DNA from: a virus
Virus record (IMG/VR): IMGVR_UViG_3300030119_000573
Span: 1 to 25,607 of that record
Direction: 5' to 3' (one strand)
DNA length: 25,607 bases
The number at the start of each line of letters is the position of its first letter. The stretch's first letter is position 1. Positions 10,379-25,034 of the stretch are shown here, one piece after another. A program made the translations under genes and the position numbers. The notes below the pieces were generated by a model. It saw nothing but the letters and a program-made list of their open reading frames with translations, was not told the origin of the DNA and did not search any database.

Positions 10379-11125
10379 TCAGTACCCCCCTCGGGAATTG
10401 GCAATCTGAAACCCGCCGCTGGTGTTGCGCTTCTTGGCGGGAGGCATGGAAAAGACCTTGTGCCGCATGCGGACGAGGTAGCGGGTGGCGTCCATCAGGT
10501 GATCGTGCGCCTTGATGATCGCGCCCTTCTCGTCGCGGCGGTAAAGCCGGTGTTCGGACAGCCAGTTGACGCAGGAGGTGAAGACCTTGAGCCGACCGGT
10601 CGAAAGCATCTGGAACACTTCGACGAGCCCGGCCTCGACCGTGTTGTCGGCCATGATGAGAGATAGGCCGAGCTCGGTGTACGCATCGAGCAGCGCCTCG
10701 CCGTCCTTCTGGTTGCGGCCGCGCGATGCCGGGTCGATCGTGCCCTGCAGCCATTCGCCCCGGGCCTTGATCGCATCGGCATGCACCGAGGGCTCGGCCA
10801 TGCCGCGGTAATGCTCGGCGTAGATGTAGAGCACGTCTGCATCGCGGTCCCACGCGCCGAACGGCGCCGCGGTCTTTTTCCAGCCGACGTCGAGCCCGTA
10901 GGCTTTCCACCAATGCGAGGGGATGGCGAAGGGGGCGACGGTGAACTCGCTCTGCGCGATCGGGTAGATTGCACCCGCGCCCAGGCTAGGAGTGCCCTTC
11001 GAGCGCGCGTCCCGCAGGTGGACGGGCGTGTTCTCGAGCATTTCCTCTGTGGTCTTTTGGTCGAGGTGGGCCACGTCATCCCACCCCGCTTGGACCATGT
11101 ACTTCGAGGAATTGACGGCGGGCAC
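10379..11125 (-). CDS. terL: Large terminase, C-terminal nuclease part (separate ORF, 248 aa)
   Basis: This ORF carries only the nuclease half of a large terminase. It runs from a conserved linker 'NSSKYMVQAGWDDVAHLD' through 'GLDVGWKKTAA' (Asp79), 'TIDPASRGR' (Asp131) and 'DHLMDATRYL' (Asp212). These are the three acidic positions expected for the RNase H-like, metal-binding nuclease. The only start near the beginning is a GTG at 11125, with no good ribosome site and an in-frame TGA two codons upstream. The ATPase half lies upstream, beyond an insert encoding a DUF2829 protein. Either two subunits assemble, or the halves are joined at RNA or protein level. The sequence alone does not decide this. 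Confidence 0.88.
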   Translation of the reverse strand: MPAVNSSKYMVQAGWDDVAHLDQKTTEEMLENTPVHLRDARSKGTPSLGAGAIYPIAQSEFTVAPFAIPSHWWKAYGLDVGWKKTAAPFGAWDRDADVLYIYAEHYRGMAEPSVHADAIKARGEWLQGTIDPASRGRNQKDGEALLDAYTELGLSLIMADNTVEAGLVEVFQMLSTGRLKVFTSCVNWLSEHRLYRRDEKGAIIKAHDHLMDATRYLVRMRHKVFSMPPAKKRNTSGGFQIANSRGGY

Positions 11126-11204
11126 GGATCACGGCTGACCTGTGTGGTCGTTTCGGTGAGCTAGATTGCTCCCGTGTCTATGGTGCCCGCCCCCCAGCAT
11201 CGGC

Positions 11205-11711
11205 TTAGTCGAGGATGCACCAATCCTCGGCGAGCGCGTCGGACTGCGAGCAGACCCACGGCACCACGTCGTTCTGCGCAGTCTTCATGGCGATGTAATC
11301 GCGGTACGGGACCATATCGTCGGGGAAGATGCCCTGCATCGTGCCGAGCGTGTTGCGACCGGCCGGGTAGCTGGCGGCCGGGACGTAGTAGAGGAACATG
11401 CCCTTGCCGTTCCATCCGGTGCGCGTGACGCGCTTGCCGTCCTTGAGCGCCATGATCGTATCGCCGAACGTCATGGATCCGCTGGCGCGGTAGGAACGTT
11501 CGAACACGGCGCGAGGCGACCACGAGATATAGCCCTTGTGATCGGGATGATTGCTTTCGCCGCCGTCGATATACTCGACGAGATAGCCATCGTCGGCCCC
11601 ATCTTCGTCGGCGGGAAGCTCCCAGCCGCGATAGTCGTTGTAATCCTGCCGGGACATGGGCGTGGCGAGGATCGCCTTGTGCCCGATGTAGAAAGCTGGC
11701 TCGCTGCGCAT
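11205..11711 (-). CDS. DUF2829 / Tad2-like anti-Thoeris protein with an N-terminal extra domain (168 aa)
   Basis: The chosen start is the ATG at 11711, preceded by GGAGG at ideal spacing; the longer in-frame start would place an operator inside the gene. Residues ~80-168 match the DUF2829 pattern: 'MTFGDTIMALKDGKRVTRTGWNGKGMFL...', then 'YIAMKTAQNDVVPWVCSQSDALAEDWCIL'. DUF2829 is the Tad2 family, which binds and sequesters the signalling molecule made by Thoeris TIR proteins. Residues 1-75 form a second small domain (YIGHK...NDYRGWELPADE...GYLVEYIDGG...YISWSP) that I have seen fused to DUF2829 in phage proteins. The gene sits between the two halves of the large terminase and has its own operator-bearing promoter region. 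Binding activity in this protein is inferred from family. Confidence 0.85.
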   Translation of the reverse strand: MRSEPAFYIGHKAILATPMSRQDYNDYRGWELPADEDGADDGYLVEYIDGGESNHPDHKGYISWSPRAVFERSYRASGSMTFGDTIMALKDGKRVTRTGWNGKGMFLYYVPAASYPAGRNTLGTMQGIFPDDMVPYRDYIAMKTAQNDVVPWVCSQSDALAEDWCILD

Positions 11712-11745
11712 GCAATCCTCCGCATCAATGGGGGTGTGTCGAGCC

Positions 11746-11792
11746 GTCCATATACGACATATCGCGCATTTCACCAACTGTCACATATGGAC
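11746..11792 (-). promoter_or_regulatory. Putative promoter region of the DUF2829 gene with two repressor-like operators
   Basis: Two 13-bp sites, GTCCATATACGAC (11746-11758) and GTCACATATGGAC (11780-11792), each differ at a few positions from the immunity-region consensus GTCCANNNTGGAC. Their starts are 34 bp apart, as for the operator pair next to the repressor. On the minus strand a GTGACA (-35-like) and a weak TATGTC (-10-like), 17 bp apart, lie within or between the sites. A bound repressor would therefore block transcription of the DUF2829 gene. Confidence 0.55.
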
Positions 11793-11832
11793 AATCGCAC
11801 ACGGGTGCGCTAACCCGTCGTCAGCGACCCGG

Positions 11833-11869
11833 AAGGCCCGTCCCTCTCTCCATTGGGGGCGGGCCTTTT
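11833..11869 (+). terminator. Strong GC hairpin abutting the terminase ATPase-half stop
   Basis: An 8-bp perfect stem AAGGCCCG/CGGGCCTT, extendable inward by about 4-5 pairs (TCCC with GGGG), lies directly next to the stop codon at 11869. On the plus strand it ends in TTTTC, so its terminator polarity is rightward. On the minus strand, the direction of the surrounding genes, there is no T-run after the stem. Over about 36 bp it may block antisense transcription or mark one end of the inserted segment. Confidence 0.5.
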
Positions 11870-13719
11870 CATTCCCCGGGGCGCATGTCCTGTGGCAGGA
11901 ATTGCAGCACGTTTTCCGACAATCCCTTGAGCGGCGTGAACGTCGTCATCACGATGCCGCGCGTCGTCGCGGTACGGATCAGGCATTCGGAATAGACGTC
12001 GAGCGGGCATTCCTCGTCGAGCCAGATCAATTCCTTGGCCGTCCCCTGGAAACTGCGGCGCCCTTGGTCGAACGACTTGAACGCGAGCGATGACCATTGC
12101 CCCGATGTGTGCTGGATCGGCACGGTGTCGGCGAGATCCTGCACGCCCGCCTTCCACTTGGGCTGGCCGATGCACTCGCGCGGGATCAGGCCCGAGCCAT
12201 CGAACGCCTTGCGCCCGTCCTTGCCGGTGGTCACCTCGCCCAGCAATTCCAGCTGGATAATGTCGCGCGTCGTTTCGTTGGTGTCGCCCGCCACCCATGC
12301 GCGTATGCGCTTGTTGAAGCGCGCGCCCTCCCACCAGTGGGGATATTTGCCGGTTAGGTGCGCGGTTGTCTCGTAAGCGCCGGCCACGGTGTTGTGCGTG
12401 ACGATGAAATCGCGGGTCAGATAGAGGCTGTCCTGTGCTTCGACCTTGATGCAGGTGCATTCGGCCTGTCCCGCGGGCTCGATCGCTTCGATCATCACCC
12501 CGCGCATCCGCCTGCCCGCGAAACGCTGGTGTTTCGCCTTGCGCTCCAGGCGGAAAATGTTGTGCGCTGATGCCGCTAGATGCACGCGCCAAGAGCAATG
12601 CAACTCGCCGCGATACCTGCCGTTCTTCGGGAGAACCCGCGCGTTCATACCAAGGCTGCGCGCAAGGCTTGCTACGTCCTCGCATAGATCGCGGTTCACC
12701 GAGTAGAATTGCCGGGCGCCGGTTGCCTTACTGCACGACCCGTCAGTGTCCATCAGCCCTTGTAGCACCGCGAGCCGGTCCGCTTCCGAGGCCAGCATGT
12801 ATTCGGCCGGCACTCGCTTATTGTGCGACGTCTTGCCAGCCATGCCGAGCCCGTCGAGAACTTGGCGCAGGAAGTTGTGATGGTGGCCGCCCACTTTCAC
12901 GGTCGTTGCGAAATGCCATGTGCAGTCCCCGACGCGGCGCAGATCGCAAGCGAACGCAGCGGCCTGTTGGCGAAGGTACGATTCCTGTTCGGCGAAATCA
13001 TCATCCTGCATCGAAAGCAGCACGCGGTCGGTGGACAAGCCGCCATCGCCCAGCAACACGCCAATCAAGTACGGGTCGGCGGGCAATTCAGGGCGGTCAG
13101 CATAGGTGACGCTCGGCCGTTGCGGAAGCATCCACCGTTCACCCTTGAGGATTCGCGCCATCAACTCACGCGCGGTCAGGGTTTGCTCGGGCGCCGTGCG
13201 CCCACCGGACACGGGGCGCGCGGTCCATAGATGATCGAGGTCGCAGCGCGTGGTTGATCCATCAGACATTCGCACGGTGACAATCTCGCGCGCGCCTTGC
13301 GGGAATACACCTGCCACGCGGGTAGGCTTGCCATCGGCGCCGATCACCTCGTCGCCCAGGCGCAGCGTGCCCATGGGGGCGAATCCGTGCGGGGTCAGAA
13401 CGGGCTCGTCGTTCGGTTGAGCCTTCCCGACGCGGTTCGCAGCCATGAAGCAGCGTTCGCGGTACTCCTTGCCGACGCGGAAGAACTCGAGGTGCTTGGG
13501 GTAGAGCTCGCGGCGCAGCGGGCCGGTGTCGGGGAAGAGGTCGTTGAACTTGTTGAACCGGGCGCGATCCTCGTCGCGCAGGATGGGCAGGAGCATTGCC
13601 TCGATCGTGTCGTCGTCGAGCTCGCGCACGAGCGCATCGGGGTCGAGGTCAGCCAGGGCAATCCCGCGCTGCTTGGCGATCGGCTCGAGCAGCGCGCGTA
13701 GGTCGTCGATCGCGGCCAT
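11869..13719 (-). CDS. terL: Large terminase ATPase part containing an in-frame intein (616 aa precursor)
   Basis: Starts at the ATG at 13719, sharing one base with the small-terminase stop (TGATG). Residues 1-99 are the N-extein, ending in the Walker A half 'MAANRVGK'. Residues 100-443 are an intein. Residues 444-616 resume with 'TVAGAYETTAHLTGKYPHWWEG', so the rejoined P-loop reads NRVGKT. They include the Walker B-like segment 'ELIWLDEE' and a 'TTFTPLKGLSE' motif typical of this terminase family. The ORF stops at the ATPase/nuclease boundary (...MRPGE), and the nuclease half is encoded at 10379-11125. Splicing is needed to restore the nucleotide-binding lysine-threonine step, so packaging activity should depend on it. 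Spliced ATPase half would be about 272 aa. Confidence 0.92.
   Translation of the reverse strand: MAAIDDLRALLEPIAKQRGIALADLDPDALVRELDDDTIEAMLLPILRDEDRARFNKFNDLFPDTGPLRRELYPKHLEFFRVGKEYRERCFMAANRVGKAQPNDEPVLTPHGFAPMGTLRLGDEVIGADGKPTRVAGVFPQGAREIVTVRMSDGSTTRCDLDHLWTARPVSGGRTAPEQTLTARELMARILKGERWMLPQRPSVTYADRPELPADPYLIGVLLGDGGLSTDRVLLSMQDDDFAEQESYLRQQAAAFACDLRRVGDCTWHFATTVKVGGHHHNFLRQVLDGLGMAGKTSHNKRVPAEYMLASEADRLAVLQGLMDTDGSCSKATGARQFYSVNRDLCEDVASLARSLGMNARVLPKNGRYRGELHCSWRVHLAASAHNIFRLERKAKHQRFAGRRMRGVMIEAIEPAGQAECTCIKVEAQDSLYLTRDFIVTHNTVAGAYETTAHLTGKYPHWWEGARFNKRIRAWVAGDTNETTRDIIQLELLGEVTTGKDGRKAFDGSGLIPRECIGQPKWKAGVQDLADTVPIQHTSGQWSSLAFKSFDQGRRSFQGTAKELIWLDEECPLDVYSECLIRTATTRGIVMTTFTPLKGLSENVLQFLPQDMRPGE
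12391..13422 (-). mobile_element. Class 3-type intein with LAGLIDADG endonuclease, in Walker A of large terminase
   Basis: A 344-residue intein lies exactly between the Lys and Thr of the terminase P-loop. It starts with Ala, not Cys or Ser. It contains block B 'TTRCDLDHLW', with His followed two residues later by Trp. Block F is 'ECTCIKVEA', with Cys at the fourth position. Block G is 'FIVTHN', with Thr before the His-Asn pair, and the +1 extein residue is Thr. The Trp (block B), Cys (block F) and Thr (block G) triplet plus the non-nucleophilic first residue define class 3 inteins, which branch first through the block F Cys. Two dodecapeptide endonuclease motifs are intact in appearance: 'LIGVLLGDGG' and 'VLQGLMDTDG'. 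Homing activity is therefore plausible. Confidence 0.88.
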
Positions 13720-14297
13720 CAATGCTTCGTCGCTTGGTTCCCGAGGCCACGGCCGAGCACTTGCCCCAGCCGGTCGGCGAGCATGTTGCGCTTTTCGTCG
13801 AGGTCGAACCCGTCGAGGCTGGCGCTATCCACCGGCACGGCGACGGCGAGCGCAGCGGTGTTGGCCTTGGTGTAGACGTCGCCCATTTCCTTCGCGGCCT
13901 GCTCGAGCGCCATGCGCGCTTCCTTGAGGTCGCGGGCTTTCAGCGCCTTGCTGTGCAGGAGGGCGAGACGGCGAATCCGGTACGCCTTGTTGGCGATCGG
14001 CTCGGAGCTCACCTCCTTGAGGAAGGCGGCGCGGGTTTCCTCGAACAGGATCCGGCGCTTCTGATAGCTGCCGGCGCTTGTCGGGTCGTACTTCGTGATG
14101 GCCTGGCGGGAGAGCAGCGGCTCGTTATTGGGTCCAAGCATGTCCTCGGCAATCTCGGTCGGCGTGTCGAACATGGCGAGGCGCATGGTGATTTCATCCT
14201 TCTGCGCATCGGTGAGCACGTCGGCCTTGGCGCGCGACTTGGTCCGCGGCTTGGCGGGAGGGGGCTTCTTTGCCTTGGGTTTGGGGGTGCGAGCCAT
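13719..14297 (-). CDS. terS: Small terminase, DUF2280-like (192 aa)
   Basis: Contains 'LTDAQKDEITMRLAMFDTPTEIAED', 'LSRQAITKYDPTSAG', 'FEETRAAFLKEVSSEPIANKAYRIRRL' and 'LEQAAKEMGDVYT', the layout of DUF2280 proteins, which act as small terminase subunits recognising the packaging site. The first ~25 residues are strongly basic and Pro-rich (ARTPKPKAKKPPPAKPRTKSRAK), suiting DNA binding. The start at 14297 follows the previous stop by 7 nt; an alternative ATG at 14324 would add nine residues and overlap the upstream gene by 20 bp. It is immediately upstream of, and coupled to, the large terminase. Confidence 0.85.
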   Translation of the reverse strand: MARTPKPKAKKPPPAKPRTKSRAKADVLTDAQKDEITMRLAMFDTPTEIAEDMLGPNNEPLLSRQAITKYDPTSAGSYQKRRILFEETRAAFLKEVSSEPIANKAYRIRRLALLHSKALKARDLKEARMALEQAAKEMGDVYTKANTAALAVAVPVDSASLDGFDLDEKRNMLADRLGQVLGRGLGNQATKH

Positions 14298-14304
14298 GCG
14301 CGAA

Positions 14305-14880
14305 TTATCCGCTTTCTCGTCCATTTTGGCAAGTTGAAGCGAAGTATTCGGCCATTTCGTCAGCGCGCCTGCATGCGCGCCAATCAGCATTGCGCAGCTT
14401 GAGGACGGCGGTGAACCGCTTGCCTTCAAGGTGGCGCTCGTCGAACGCGACAAAAAACTGGTAGCGTTTGCCGTCCCGGGTGATCTTCCCTGTTGTCTTG
14501 CTCTCGAACACGGCCCCGAGCTCGCGCAGATCCACGCGCACTTGGTTCATGTTGCGCGCGATCACGGCCAGGCTTTCGATCTTCTCGGGCTCGGGCTGGA
14601 ACTCTTTAAGCGGAATGTGCTGCTCGCCCAGCATGGCGCCGGTTCCGTGGGCCAGCGCATCAATCGCGGTCCGCGCCTTGGCATGCATGGCGGCCATGTC
14701 CTCCATCAACGCCAGCGTATGCGGCTGGCCGATCACGTCCAGCACCCAAGGCGCGCGCGGCCTGCTCGCCTCGATCGCGGTCAGCTGCTCGATGATCGGC
14801 GCAGCTTCTTCGTCGGCGCGGCGGCGTATCTCGGCCAGTTGCTCGCGCAGTTGGGTTTCGAGGTCGGGTGTGTCGCTCAT
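14305..14880 (-). CDS. Unknown protein upstream of terminase (191 aa)
   Basis: The ATG at 14880 overlaps the preceding stop (ATGA). The N-terminal 45 residues are a charged helix (LETQLREQLAEIRRRADEEAAPIIEQL), followed by a helical middle section. A C-terminal part, 'FESKTTGKITRDGKRYQFFVAFDERHLEGKRFTAVLKLRNADWRACRRADEMAEYF', is basic and aromatic. No family is recognised. It sits in the coupled block between the lysis-like cassette and the terminases, so a role in packaging or nucleic acid binding is possible but unproven. Confidence 0.7.
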   Translation of the reverse strand: MSDTPDLETQLREQLAEIRRRADEEAAPIIEQLTAIEASRPRAPWVLDVIGQPHTLALMEDMAAMHAKARTAIDALAHGTGAMLGEQHIPLKEFQPEPEKIESLAVIARNMNQVRVDLRELGAVFESKTTGKITRDGKRYQFFVAFDERHLEGKRFTAVLKLRNADWRACRRADEMAEYFASTCQNGRESG

Positions 14881-15527: not shown

Positions 15528-15797
15528 TTAGGTTTCCTCATTGCGGGTGACGGTGAGGGTGAAGCTTTCATCCCCGACGCTGAATTGCCGGTAGGCTGTC
15601 CAAGTCCCGACGTCGGTGCCGGTGTACTTCTCGTTCTCGCGGATCTTGAGCACGCACGAGAACACGAGCGCATCGAGCACGCTCGGTGTCGGCGCGGGCG
15701 GTGCCTTCGCCAATTGCCGCTGGCGCCAGAGGATCGCGGCCCACCATGCAGCGAGGCAGGCGTAGACCAGCCCGGCGACTTTCTCGGCGGCGGTCAT
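15528..15797 (-). CDS. Membrane-anchored small protein in the lysis-like cassette (89 aa)
   Basis: One N-terminal hydrophobic segment (VAGLVYACLAAWWAAILW) is followed by a basic patch, a Pro-rich hinge (KAPPAPTPS) and a beta-rich domain with 'FSVGDESFTLTVTRNEE'. Its ATG overlaps the methyltransferase stop (ATGA). It lacks the coiled coil expected of an Rz-type inner spanin. Function unknown; a lysis or superinfection role is suggested only by neighbours. Confidence 0.68.
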   Translation of the reverse strand: MTAAEKVAGLVYACLAAWWAAILWRQRQLAKAPPAPTPSVLDALVFSCVLKIRENEKYTGTDVGTWTAYRQFSVGDESFTLTVTRNEET

Positions 15798-16627
15798 GCT
15801 GCCAATCCGTCGAACAAAGGACCATTCCCCTGCGCGGCAGCAGCAGAGGGGTTAATCCAGAGAACTTCTGTGCGAGCGCGTGCTCCGTCCGCCAACGCCT
15901 TTCGCTCCACGCGAAGCCAGCCAGATAGGGCGTCATCGTAGAGGGGGCTGGGGTATCCAGAGAGGACCACCATGCCGGTTAGCCCGCGCAAGAAGTCCAG
16001 CAGTTCCGCATGGTCTTCGTCGCTCATTTCGTGAGCATAATCTGCGCCGTTGTCCGAGCGAGTGTCGAACACATAGGGCGGGTCGACATAATGGAGCGTT
16101 TGCGCGCTATCGTGTTGCGCCATGACCGCCCGCGCGTCCTTGTTCTCGAGGGTAACGCCTTGAAGGCGCTCGACGACGACCGCGAGGGAATCGGGATAGT
16201 TCACCCAATCGTGCGAAGGCGTCGTTCCGCTCCGGTTCGAGTTGGCGCGAAACCCAGTCAGCTTGTTGTGACCGTTGCTCCCGAAGCCCATAAAGCTGCG
16301 GATGATAAGGCGGCGGGCCGCTTCAACCGGGTCGTTGGTTGGTTGATATGCTTCCGCGAATTCATCCCGCGCGAAAGGCGTGAGACGCAGCGCATTTACC
16401 AATTCGCTTGCCCGGTTAGAGCGGAGTACGCGAAACAGTCCGACGACCGCTTGGTCGAGATCGTTGTAAATTTCGGCGTAGGAGCGCTTCTTGCGGAGAA
16501 GAACACTCGCCGCACCACCGAACGGCTCGACGTACACTTGGTGCGCCGGGAAGTGCGCAGTGATCCACGGGGCGAGGAGCCACTTGCCACCATGCCAGCG
16601 TAGGACGGGGCGAGTTGGTTCGCTCAC
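15794..16627 (-). CDS. D12-class adenine-N6 DNA methyltransferase (277 aa)
   Basis: The GTG start at 16627 overlaps the upstream stop (GTGA). The N-terminal 'LRWHGGKWLLAPWI' is the SAM-proximal motif X of Dam/MboIIM-type (D12) enzymes. 'EPFGGAASVLL' (about residue 34) is motif I, and 'YVDPPYVF' (DPPY at 182-185) is the catalytic motif IV. Length is typical. It should methylate adenine in a short target, protecting phage DNA from restriction or tuning expression or packaging. No restriction partner is nearby, so it is a solitary phage methylase. Target sequence cannot be read from the protein. Confidence 0.92.
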   Translation of the reverse strand: MSEPTRPVLRWHGGKWLLAPWITAHFPAHQVYVEPFGGAASVLLRKKRSYAEIYNDLDQAVVGLFRVLRSNRASELVNALRLTPFARDEFAEAYQPTNDPVEAARRLIIRSFMGFGSNGHNKLTGFRANSNRSGTTPSHDWVNYPDSLAVVVERLQGVTLENKDARAVMAQHDSAQTLHYVDPPYVFDTRSDNGADYAHEMSDEDHAELLDFLRGLTGMVVLSGYPSPLYDDALSGWLRVERKALADGARARTEVLWINPSAAAAQGNGPLFDGLAA

Positions 16628-17217
16628 GCCTCCCCTCCCTGAGCAACGCGCTCGCAACCATCCCGTTCGCTCGGATGATCGGCGGCGAGTTTCTTCATCA
16701 GCGCGGCGACTTCCTCGGGGGAAGCCATGTCTTCCTCGCGCAGGGGCGGTTTCCACTTCGCTTCGTGGTCGCGGATCAGCTGGCGGGCGCGGAAGTGGGC
16801 GAACTCGCGGCGCGCGGCGTATTTGTTCGCGGCTTTCAGCACCTCGGCGGGCGTGGGCATGAACGTCATCGAGCGCAGGAGGTCATCGGTGCCGCGGGCG
16901 AGGTCGGCCTTGGCCACACCCTTGAGCGCGCGGGCGTAGAGGTCGAGGCGTGCGCCTGCTTCGAGCTTGGTGGTGCCGGGGCGTTCCTTGAGGACGAGCG
17001 AGAGCGCGGTGACGTGTTCGTCTACGTCGTCAGTCGTAGCCATCGCCGGTTCCGGTTGAGCGGTCAGCCAGTTGCGGAGCTCTGTGGCCGTCTTCGGGCC
17101 AATGATCGGGTTGTCCTGGCTCTTGAGCAGCGCGGCGAGCTTTTCGCTCAAGCGTGGCCGCGACATAGGGGTTCCCGGGGTGTTGGGCGGATTGCTGGGG
17201 GTGACTTCTGTTGCCAT
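16624..17217 (-). CDS. Unknown protein of the replication-type block (197 aa)
   Basis: A Pro/Thr-rich start (MATEVTPSNPPNTPGTPM) is followed by helices 'LSEKLAALLKSQDNPI' and 'ATELRNWLTAQPEP'. A C-terminal half follows with 'LDLYARALKGVAKADLARGTDDLLRSMTFMPTPAEVLKAANKYAARREFAHFRARQLIRDHEAKWKPP'. I associate that last pattern with proteins encoded beside phage replication initiators in alphaproteobacterial prophages, but no biochemical role is established to me. Its first ~188 nt overlap the end of the upstream HTH gene in another frame. Codon third-position GC favours this frame within the overlap. Confidence 0.72.
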   Translation of the reverse strand: MATEVTPSNPPNTPGTPMSRPRLSEKLAALLKSQDNPIIGPKTATELRNWLTAQPEPAMATTDDVDEHVTALSLVLKERPGTTKLEAGARLDLYARALKGVAKADLARGTDDLLRSMTFMPTPAEVLKAANKYAARREFAHFRARQLIRDHEAKWKPPLREEDMASPEEVAALMKKLAADHPSERDGCERVAQGGEA

Positions 17218-20522: not shown

Positions 20523-20591
20523 ATTGTCCAAAATGGACGGGACACGTCAAGGGCTTTCTGTCAGTAGTGGACGGGCAATGCTTGATATGAT
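20523..20591. promoter_or_regulatory. Immunity intergenic region: two operators and divergent promoters
   Basis: Operators are GTCCAAAATGGAC (20526-20538, perfect palindrome) and GTCAGTAGTGGAC (20560-20572), with starts 34 bp apart. The leftward promoter is TTGACG (20550-20545) and GACAAT (20528-20523), spacer 16 bp, with the first operator over the -10. The rightward promoter has a good -10, TATGAT (20586-20591), but no recognisable -35; the second operator lies about where the -35 should be. That fits autoregulation of the repressor gene. Confidence 0.7.
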
Positions 20592-20607
20592 CGTTACAAA
20601 AGGACGC

Positions 20608-21204
20608 ATGGACAATGCAGACACACCGAATCGCATACGGGAATTGCGAAAGAGCGCCGGCCTCTCGCAGGAGGAGCTTGGCGGGCGGATGCGATCGGAT
20701 CTCACGAGCTCTACGGTCGCCAAGCTCGAGAAGGGCCGGCTGCGGCTATCGCTCGAATATGCGCAGGAAATCGCCGACGTGCTCGGCGTCTCCTTCCTCG
20801 AAGTCCTCGGCATGGATGAAGTCGGCGTACGCGTCGTCCCCCTCGTCGGCGAAATCGCCGCTGGCAATTGGAGGGAAGCGGTGCATCTGACGGAGGAAAG
20901 CCAGGTAATTCCCGCCGATCTGCGGGGCAAGGATCTGTTCGCGCTGCGCCCCCGGGGAGATTCGATGGATCGGGTCGTGCAATGCGGCGGGTTCATCGTC
21001 GTGGACCCGGGCCAGACAGAGCTTGTCGATGGCAAATACTATGCCGTGATGAACGACGAGGGCGAGACGACGTTCAAGCAATTCAGCCAGAACCCGCTTG
21101 AGCTTCGGCCATGCTCCACGAACCCCGCCTATCAGCCCATTCCGGTAGGCTCCCAGGCGTTCACGGTGATCGGCCGAGTGGTCTACGCAGGGCAGGAAAT
21201 GTAA
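20608..21204 (+). CDS. S24/LexA-type self-cleaving phage repressor (198 aa)
   Basis: The chosen start is the ATG at 20608 with AAAGGA just upstream; the frame is open further up but would cross the operators. Residues ~8-65 are an XRE helix-turn-helix ('IRELRKSAGLSQEELGGRM...SSTVAKLEKGRLRLSLEYAQEIADVLG'). The C-terminal peptidase has the cleavage site Ala85-Gly86 ('VPLVGEIAAGNW'), nucleophile Ser119 ('PRGDSM') and general base Lys157 ('GETTFKQF'). RecA-stimulated self-cleavage on DNA damage should inactivate it, so the phage is likely SOS-inducible. It is the master lysogeny repressor and should bind the GTCCANNNTGGAC operators. Confidence 0.93.
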   Translation: MDNADTPNRIRELRKSAGLSQEELGGRMRSDLTSSTVAKLEKGRLRLSLEYAQEIADVLGVSFLEVLGMDEVGVRVVPLVGEIAAGNWREAVHLTEESQVIPADLRGKDLFALRPRGDSMDRVVQCGGFIVVDPGQTELVDGKYYAVMNDEGETTFKQFSQNPLELRPCSTNPAYQPIPVGSQAFTVIGRVVYAGQEM

Positions 21205-21222: not shown

Positions 21223-21273
21223 GTCTTTTTTGGACGACACGCCTTGACACATGCCGTCCATTATGGACATATA
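21223..21273 (+). promoter_or_regulatory. Rightward early promoter with two repressor operators
   Basis: A consensus -35 TTGACA (21244-21249) is followed 17-18 bp later by a weak -10 (ACATAT or CATATA, about 21267-21273). Operator GTCCATTATGGAC (21256-21268, perfect palindrome) fills the spacer, and a degenerate one, GTCTTTTTTGGAC (21223-21235), lies 33 bp upstream. Repressor binding would directly block polymerase on the 21302-onward genes. Confidence 0.72.
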
Positions 21274-23461: not shown

Positions 23462-24655
23462 ATGAACGATCAGTCCAACATGCCTGCCACGCGCCGCGAG
23501 CCTTCGCCGCTTGCCGTCCTGAACAAGGAGCTCGAGCAGCGGCAGGAACAGTACCGCATGGCGCTCCCTTCGCATATCAAGCCCGAGGATCTGCAGCGCA
23601 CCGTCGTCATGGCCGCGCAGCAGAACCCCAAACTGCTCGAGGCCGATCGGCGCACGCTCATGCTCTCGTGCATGAAGGCTGCGCAGGACGGGTTGCTGCC
23701 CGACGGCCGGGAGGCGGCGCTCGTGCCGTTCTCGGTGCGCAAGAAGGATCCGCAAGGCAAATGGATTTCGGTCGTCGAAGTCCAGTATATGCCGATGGTC
23801 TACGGCCTGCGGAAGAAGATCATGCAGTCTGACGAAATCGCGTCGATGCAGGTCGGCGTGGTCTATCTGGCCGAGTACGAAAGCGGCCGATTCCTGTTCG
23901 AGGTCGGGCTCGAACCCCCCATTCGCTACAAGCCCGACCTCACCCTTCCCATGGAAGAAACCACCGACGAGAAGATCGTCGCCGCGTGGTCGCTGGTGAA
24001 GTTCAAGGATGGCTCGTGGTCGGGCGAAGTGATGCGTCGCGCCGAAATCGACAAGATCCAGAACCTTTCGCAGACGGGATCGAAGGTCGATTACAGGGGC
24101 AACTCGCGTGAACCGAAGGGCCCGTGGGCCGATCACTTTGGCGAAATGGCCAAGAAGACCGTGATGCGCCGGCACTCCAAGGTGCTGCCCATGAGCGGCG
24201 ACATTTTCCGCGACGTCGAGGGTGACGACGTGGAGCGCTCGATCCGCTCGGCAACGAACGTCCTCGATAGCGTGGACGAGGCGGCACCGGTCGCCCTGCC
24301 CTCGCAGGACGAGCCAATCGACGAGGAAACCGGCGAAGTCGTCGAGCAGGGCCAGGAAAGAGAAGCCGCTGATCCTGCCACGGGAATGACCGAGGTGGAC
24401 GAGGAAACGGCGCGTAAGCTCGATGCGGGCGAGGACGTCGAGCAGGAAGCCGAGGAATCGGACGCGGCGGGCGAACCCGACCCCAAGATGCAAAAGCTCG
24501 AGGCGATCAAGCGCAACGTGCGCGAGACGATGACGCTGCAGACGCTCAAGAATTGGGACGGCGAATGGCAGAAGATCACCGCCTTCTACGATGACAAGAC
24601 TGTGGCTGAGGTGGACGCGCTGTTCACCGAACGGCGCCGGGAGCTTTCCGAGTGA
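23462..24655 (+). CDS. recT: RecT-family single-strand annealing protein (397 aa)
   Basis: Residues ~15-270 carry RecT hallmarks: 'RTVVMAAQQNPKLLEADRRTLMLSCMKAAQDGLLPDGREAALVPF', 'VQYMPMVYGLRKKI', 'GSWSGEVMRRAEIDKIQ' and 'GPWADHFGEMAKKTVMRRHSKVLPMS'. It anneals complementary single strands in phage recombination. The C-terminal ~120 residues are a very acidic, low-complexity linker followed by a helical end (NVRETMTLQTLKNWDGEWQKITAFY). That makes the protein longer than a minimal RecT and may bind SSB or another partner. AGGAGA precedes the ATG. No RecE- or YqaJ-like nuclease gene is adjacent. Confidence 0.92.
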   Translation: MNDQSNMPATRREPSPLAVLNKELEQRQEQYRMALPSHIKPEDLQRTVVMAAQQNPKLLEADRRTLMLSCMKAAQDGLLPDGREAALVPFSVRKKDPQGKWISVVEVQYMPMVYGLRKKIMQSDEIASMQVGVVYLAEYESGRFLFEVGLEPPIRYKPDLTLPMEETTDEKIVAAWSLVKFKDGSWSGEVMRRAEIDKIQNLSQTGSKVDYRGNSREPKGPWADHFGEMAKKTVMRRHSKVLPMSGDIFRDVEGDDVERSIRSATNVLDSVDEAAPVALPSQDEPIDEETGEVVEQGQEREAADPATGMTEVDEETARKLDAGEDVEQEAEESDAAGEPDPKMQKLEAIKRNVRETMTLQTLKNWDGEWQKITAFYDDKTVAEVDALFTERRRELSE

Positions 24656-24843
24656 CCCGGCATTCGGCCGGCCGAGACGATTGGGCGGTGCCTCGCGCGC
24701 CGTCCGATCCCAGCCTGCGCACGAGGATGCACGGCCGGATCCTGCCCATGCCCGAACCCCGCGCGCGTTCGAAGTGGGTTGGCGCAATCCTTGTCACCGC
24801 CGTCGCGCTTGCCGCCACGGCATTCTCTGGAGCCCTCCTATGA
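24652..24843 (+). CDS. Mini membrane protein, GTG start (63 aa)
   Basis: The GTG start at 24652 overlaps the recT stop (GTGA), and the stop overlaps the next ATG (ATGA). The N-terminal ~40 residues are Arg/Pro-rich. The C-terminal ~22 residues form one hydrophobic helix (WVGAILVTAVALAATAFSGALL). Double coupling supports translation. Function unknown. Confidence 0.62.
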   Translation: MTRHSAGRDDWAVPRAPSDPSLRTRMHGRILPMPEPRARSKWVGAILVTAVALAATAFSGALL

Positions 24844-25034
24844 CCCGCGCCAGATACCTTCGCATTGCCGACGTGCTCGAGAAGACCGGCCTGTCCCGGC
24901 GCACGATCTACCGGAAGATGGACAACGGCACTTTCCCCAAGAGCGTCAAGCTCTCGGACAGCGCCGTGGGCTGGCCCGAGGAACAGGTGAACGCCTGGCT
25001 CGAGAGCCCCGAGGATTGGAAGGAAGCAGCATGA
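24840..25034 (+). CDS. AlpA-family small DNA-binding regulator/excisionase (64 aa)
   Basis: Starts at the ATG at 24840. 'YLRIADVLEKTGLSRRTIYRKMDNGTFPKSVKLSDSAVGWPEEQVNAWLES' is the classic AlpA/MerR-like small winged helix, with the recognition helix at 'SRRTIYRKM'. Family members act as transcription activators or recombination directionality factors. No integrase is visible in this window, so which role applies here is open. Confidence 0.88.
   Translation: MTRARYLRIADVLEKTGLSRRTIYRKMDNGTFPKSVKLSDSAVGWPEEQVNAWLESPEDWKEAA

Follow-up and report, generated by a model that had tools for sequence, protein, structure and literature searches.

Class 3 inteins have no nucleophile at position 1 and are defined by a Trp at B:12, a Cys at F:4 and a Thr at G:5 (PMC5222942, PMC5050341); a DxxH motif in block B has also been described for them (PMC6195587). 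M. smegmatis DnaBi1 (6bs8) and M. chimaera DnaB1 (6rix) combine this Trp-Cys-Thr triplet with a non-nucleophilic first residue and a HINT fold, and DnaBi1, for which a P-loop insertion is stated, is a mini-intein without an endonuclease that resides in a helicase. In large terminases (TerL), the position between Lys and Thr of the P-loop has already been named a classic P-loop insertion, TerL1-a, and the mycobacteriophage hosts of these inteins are terminase_1 type large subunits with ATPase and nuclease domains (PMC5050341). The TerL of cyanophage Mic1 contains two inteins and is described as a single protein with both domains (PMC7156551). Canonical TerL proteins, such as those of phages P74-26 and D6E, also hold both domains in one chain. 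When T4 gp17 was split at the linker between them, both enzyme activities were kept and translocation was lost completely (PMC3012670).

The locus described here lies in a virus sequence of 25.6 kb, probably a fragment, all 25,607 nucleotides of which are referred to as the window. We read it as a mobile class 3 intein that interrupts the P-loop of a terminase split by nature into two parts, which assemble in trans, and we give this reading a probability of roughly 0.8. The precursor ORF (11869..13722, minus strand; 617 codons from a TTG at 13722, or 616 from an ATG at 13719) encodes the ATPase part of TerL together with the intein, as indicated by its translation and by matches to Pfam Terminase_6N (1.7e-11) and PHROG phrog_31467 (3.5e-85). 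Its N-extein (13423..13719, minus strand) ends with the first part of Walker A, ..MAANRVGK. The 344-aa intein, with a LAGLIDADG homing endonuclease domain inside it, occupies 12391..13422 (minus strand), and the C-extein (11869..12390, minus strand) supplies the remainder of Walker A, Walker B (LIWLDEE), the coupling motif (TFTPLKG) and the stop codon. The second TerL gene (10379..11125, minus strand) has its own GTG start and encodes the last ATPase strand, the lid and the RNase H nuclease; its assignment is based on Pfam Terminase_6C (3e-13), alignment to the P22 and D6E TerL proteins and the register of its start. Between both TerL genes lies a gene for a Tad2-like (Thoeris anti-defence 2) protein (11205..11711, minus strand), preceded by two operator-like palindromes (11745-11759 and 11779-11793, on neither strand in particular).

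The initial annotation placed the intein exactly between the Lys and Thr of the P-loop and called for a comparison with intein-free alleles. The placement holds: on the minus strand, the 344 codons of the intein (13422 to 12391) read AQPNDE...FIVTHN and are flanked by ..MAANRVGK and TVAGAYE.., and the borders are exact, because relatives without the intein present an empty site with an uninterrupted AANRVGKT. The intein matched intein-bearing phage proteins in tblastn with E values down to 2e-53, and those PHROG and NCBIfam profiles that bear inteins also matched it far beyond chance. From this geometry it follows that the P-loop would be rebuilt solely through splicing. The spliced product is predicted to be small, about 30 kDa, as had been anticipated; judged by its sequence, it is just the main part of the ATPase domain, with Walker A, Walker B and the coupling motif, and the rest is encoded by the second gene.

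The triplet that had been proposed for this intein aligned in register with 6rix, a solved class 3 intein, as W66, C324 and T342, with HLW paired to HQW, the second Cys of CTC to the block F Cys and THN to THN. The first residue is Ala, in agreement with the earlier description, and no Cys, Ser or Thr nucleophile is found there. On the minus strand, block B His64-Leu-Trp66 (DxxHxW; Trp B:12) is encoded at 13225..13233, the predicted initiating nucleophile Cys324 (F:4) at 12451..12453, and block G Thr342-His343-Asn344 at 12391..12399, followed by the P-loop Thr as the +1 residue (12388-12390). The DxxH of block B is present as D61-L-D-H64 and is thus common to the window intein and the DnaB class 3 inteins. 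For comparison, a set of 71 inteins was assembled from the window intein and 70 homologues from viral contigs. His64, Cys324 and Thr342 were conserved in 71/71 of them and Trp66 in 70/71, and the +1 residue was Thr or Ser in 70/70. The terminal His-Asn was found in 71/71 by construction, given that the extraction pattern required x-His-Asn; the count for Thr342 is free of this pattern. The second Cys of CTC was taken as the nucleophile because the first, Cys322, varies, being Cys in 14/71 inteins.

Structural comparison pointed in the same direction. The predicted structure of the full-length intein had a mean pLDDT of 93.8, and the splicing domain of the model superimposed on the HINT fold of 6bs8 with a Z score of 20.6 and an rmsd of 1.4 A over 123/125 residues; the intein model matched 6riy with a Z score of 20.3. 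By every sequence and structure test applied, the insert is a class 3 intein, and it is predicted to splice. If it follows the chemistry of its family, Cys324 would attack the Lys-Ala junction, the acyl group would pass to the P-loop Thr at +1, and Asn344 would cyclise, so that the intein leaves and NRVGK is joined to TVAGAY.

The window intein differs from DnaBi1 in that it keeps a LAGLIDADG domain and resides in a terminase. Both LAGLIDADG motifs, initially noted as intact, were found as GVLLGDGG and QGLMDTDG with their acidic residues. Motif 1 (block C, YLIGVLLGDG) is encoded at 13042..13071 and motif 2 (block E, VLQGLMDTDG) at 12739..12768, both on the minus strand, and the endonuclease domain was identified by Pfam LAGLIDADG_3 (6.6e-07) and by a match of the whole-length intein model to PI-SceI (Z 27). 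The same intein family occurs at GK^T of many different P-loop proteins, as judged from the sequence adjacent to the inserts, and in a quick tree the terminase copies did not form one clade but fell in at least three places. This distribution looks like repeated homing into P-loops by ordinary homing elements. The LAGLIDADG domain would cut intein-free GKT alleles and thereby spread the element, and the intein itself would be a selfish passenger. The host gene differs from those of TerL1-a inteins, being a terminase_6-like ATPase gene without the nuclease part, although the intein enters at the same point, after the P-loop Lys and before the Thr.

Class 1-looking inteins were also seen in the nuclease active site (NDH/C...HN/CMDA) of three related loci, L001 (317 aa), L231 (321 aa) and L090 (133 aa). 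The split TerL of L001 bears the P-loop class 3 intein as well. L001 resembles the Mic1 TerL in that its ATPase and nuclease parts each contain an intein; the Mic1 protein is described as a single chain, whereas the window TerL is split (PMC7156551).

Since the motor needs its ATP-binding loop, the intein would have to splice. The initial annotation suggested that it could gate DNA packaging by timing or by a condition. In such a gate, oxidation or another condition would slow splicing, and packaging would wait until conditions become permissive. There is a precedent in the class 3 P-loop intein of M. smegmatis DnaB, which H2O2 inhibits via the catalytic Cys (PMC6195587), and the window intein carries further cysteines, namely Cys60 (Cys in 47/71 inteins) and Cys322, two residues ahead of Cys324. 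However, its sequence reveals no condition-dependence, and Cys322 is one of the varying positions. No intein is present in the closest split relatives, which keep the split gene order all the same, so this lineage needs no gate. A role of TerL inteins in the control of packaging had already been published for Mic1, where, in the accessible part of the report, the proposal came without a test (PMC7156551); the idea itself is therefore not new, and for the window intein we regard it as improbable. Still less credible is a dead splicing domain in an intein that no longer splices. The class 3-related intein Arsp-FB24 Arth_1007 has been reported as a pseudogene (PMC3196547), but every catalytic residue is present here, the structure model is confident over the full length, and the extein is under purifying selection, with a dN/dS for the C-extein of about 0.18-0.26 between the window and its nearest relatives.

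The intein is a new member of a documented family, inteins at K^T of terminases having been published before, and adds just this one member to it; the split terminase that it interrupts matters more. Besides the endonuclease domain, Terminase_6N was the sole Pfam domain in the precursor ORF, which stops 22 residues past the start of TPLKG. Terminase_6N and an alignment of relatives show that the motifs of the ATPase (Walker A, Walker B and the coupling motif) are all present, while the RNase H nuclease is found in the separate ORF at 11125..10379 with its own start; this TerL is not encoded as a single chain, and splicing alone therefore yields no complete motor protein. The active-site motifs in the TerL parts are intact. 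With a dN/dS of 0.24-0.39 for the nuclease part against the nearest relatives, both TerL parts are under purifying selection (about 0.2-0.4). The two ORFs are homologous to TerL, and from their sequences we infer that they function as two chains.

The folds of the two window parts are like those of the P74-26 and D6E TerL proteins and of the P22 nuclease domain, whereas the canonical single chain is here distributed over two genes. A profile search of PDB sequences with the ATPase part returned no terminase. The closest counterpart by annotation was MW202785 (ct2G2228), in which a split TerL is encoded by two CDS about 130 bp apart, both annotated as 'large terminase protein'; unlike the window, it has no intein, and no Tad2-like gene lies in its gap, and it is known by annotation alone. 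In the open-access literature searched, we found no description of a split TerL broken inside the ATPase fold, and the phrase 'split terminase' was absent; those papers examined that describe genes divided in two dealt with genes other than TerL.

To locate the break, a contiguous homologue (L156) was modelled and used as a reference for its position. In this model, the match to the P74-26 ATPase domain covered residues 26-290 (Z about 20-21), and that to the P22 nuclease domain covered residues 283-466 (Z 25.7). Split points were mapped by motif anchoring, which replaced a noisy fragment alignment. In L156 numbering, the first chain ends at a median position of 235 (quartiles 234-237). The start of the second, at 237 or 242, precedes a modelled strand (244-249) that is followed by two helices. 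The break is thus placed inside the ATPase fold, and the nuclease chain therefore carries some 45-50 residues that belong to the ATPase domain. The T4 gp17 cut was made in the laboratory at the linker, whereas these phages have a natural break within the ATPase fold. As splitting gp17 at the linker abolished translocation, a natural two-piece motor is unexpected, and a two-chain motor must differ from that of T4 or use partners. We infer that the two chains form a working motor, in which both polypeptides would assemble in trans as one subunit and the second chain would complete the ATPase fold.

The split is not peculiar to the window. Among 204 related loci, TerL was encoded by separate ORFs in 121 and by a single ORF in 83. 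The ratios of split to contiguous loci were 89/53 in IMG/VR, 21/26 in bacterial genomes and 1/4 in phage records; these counts are not frequencies, because the loci were drawn by similarity to the window. Removal of repeats and of the window left 111 distinct split loci, in which the gap between the parts ranged from -22 to 3870 bp: the ORFs overlapped or abutted in 35, and gaps were shorter than 60 bp in 12, 60-300 bp in 20, 300-1000 bp in 28 and longer than 1 kb in 16. Of the split loci, 87/101 had a start codon for the second ORF 14 or 9 codons ahead of a conserved Trp; the corresponding count for contiguous loci was 2/58. An overlap of the ATGA type was present in 16 split loci, and Shine-Dalgarno sequences before the second ORF were weakly enriched (31/87, where shuffling gave 20 on average and 30 at most). 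In a quick tree built from 166 nuclease parts, the split state required 21 changes, of either direction, and at least five of these were forced by well supported branches. Sequencing error is excluded as the cause, since the split recurs in many contigs and in isolate genomes. A split intein joining both parts was also rejected; there is no room for its pieces, because no more than about 30 residues separate the coupling motif from the end of the first ORF, and the Trp comes just 9 or 14 codons after the start of the second.

A single TerL chain could still arise if the two genes were joined after transcription or in translation, by an intron, bypassing or frameshifting. Both parts derive from one ancestral gene and are collinear with it, and phages are known to have gene-splitting introns. 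However, Rfam matched no intron in the window at the gathering threshold, nor in the gap (11000-12000) at a threshold relaxed to E = 1. The gaps also vary from an overlap to 3870 bp, with an antisense tRNA in that of one locus (L081), and only in split loci do the start codons occupy their two fixed registers; joining is accordingly very doubtful. Least likely of all is that insertion of the Tad2-like gene broke TerL and left it a decaying pseudogene. The Tad2-like gene does stand between the parts with its own upstream palindromes, after a first ORF followed by a hairpin that is itself weak (z -1.5), but relatives without Tad2 have the stop codon at the same place, some with a gap of as little as 80 bp, and both parts are under purifying selection with their active-site motifs intact.

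Beyond the window, we lean, with less assurance than for the locus itself, towards a broader form of the trans-assembly reading. A widespread group of phages and prophages would have a two-chain TerL in which the nuclease chain completes the ATPase fold in trans, and the junction would have been opened repeatedly, offering accessory and anti-defence genes a place to land, while an intein may additionally break the P-loop. Evolution appears to have cut TerL repeatedly, within the ATPase fold and not at the linker, with purifying selection on both parts. If the parts do assemble in trans, they would offer a natural system for studying communication between ATPase and nuclease in the packaging motor. 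There is also a consequence for annotation, as the ATPase part is of 'unknown function' in PHROGs, and phages of this kind may be overlooked when a full-length TerL is searched for. The family concerned, phrog_31467 (261 aa), corresponds to the split terminase's ATPase part and could be renamed.

The gene junction is a settling place for accessory genes, occupied here by the Tad2-like gene. Its product contains a PF11195 domain (about 2e-24), from which an anti-Thoeris role is predicted; PADLOC returned no match for this protein. In tblastn, it matched sequences in the gaps of two other loci, L102 and L250, the latter an Azospirillum agricola prophage. Among 66 gap proteins scanned, few had Pfam matches, and these included Tad2-like proteins (in the window and one other locus), HNH endonucleases, AP2, HipA, DUF1643, SET and MotA/ExbB. 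Since some of the gaps contain HNH genes, these may point to one route to splitting. The antisense tRNA gene of L081, a tRNA-Gly, is located at L081:4609-5000.

The palindrome TGTCCATWATGGACA occurs three times in the window with up to three mismatches (11779-11793, 20525-20539 and 21255-21269), with 0.17 occurrences expected. Two of the sites are around a CI-like repressor gene (20524-21204; HTH and S24 peptidase) and its Cro-like neighbour and the third is upstream of the Tad2-like gene, an arrangement which suggests that this gene is under repressor control. A near-palindrome, TTGTCGTATACGGACA, was seen just upstream of the start of the nuclease part in loci L081-L083 (L081:4961-4975, L083:4960-4974), and the window palindrome at 11745-11759, upstream of Tad2, is similar to it. 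In the palindrome search, the L083 and L081 records each yielded a single site, and no operator family is therefore shown in them. A terminator scan found none.

Directly upstream of the terminase gene, a DUF2280 protein is encoded at 13719-14453 (minus strand), and its position makes it a possible small terminase. A gene for a D12-class adenine DNA methyltransferase follows at 15794-16756 (minus strand), and the plus strand encodes a RecT-like annealing protein (23462-24655) and an AlpA-type regulator (24591-25034).
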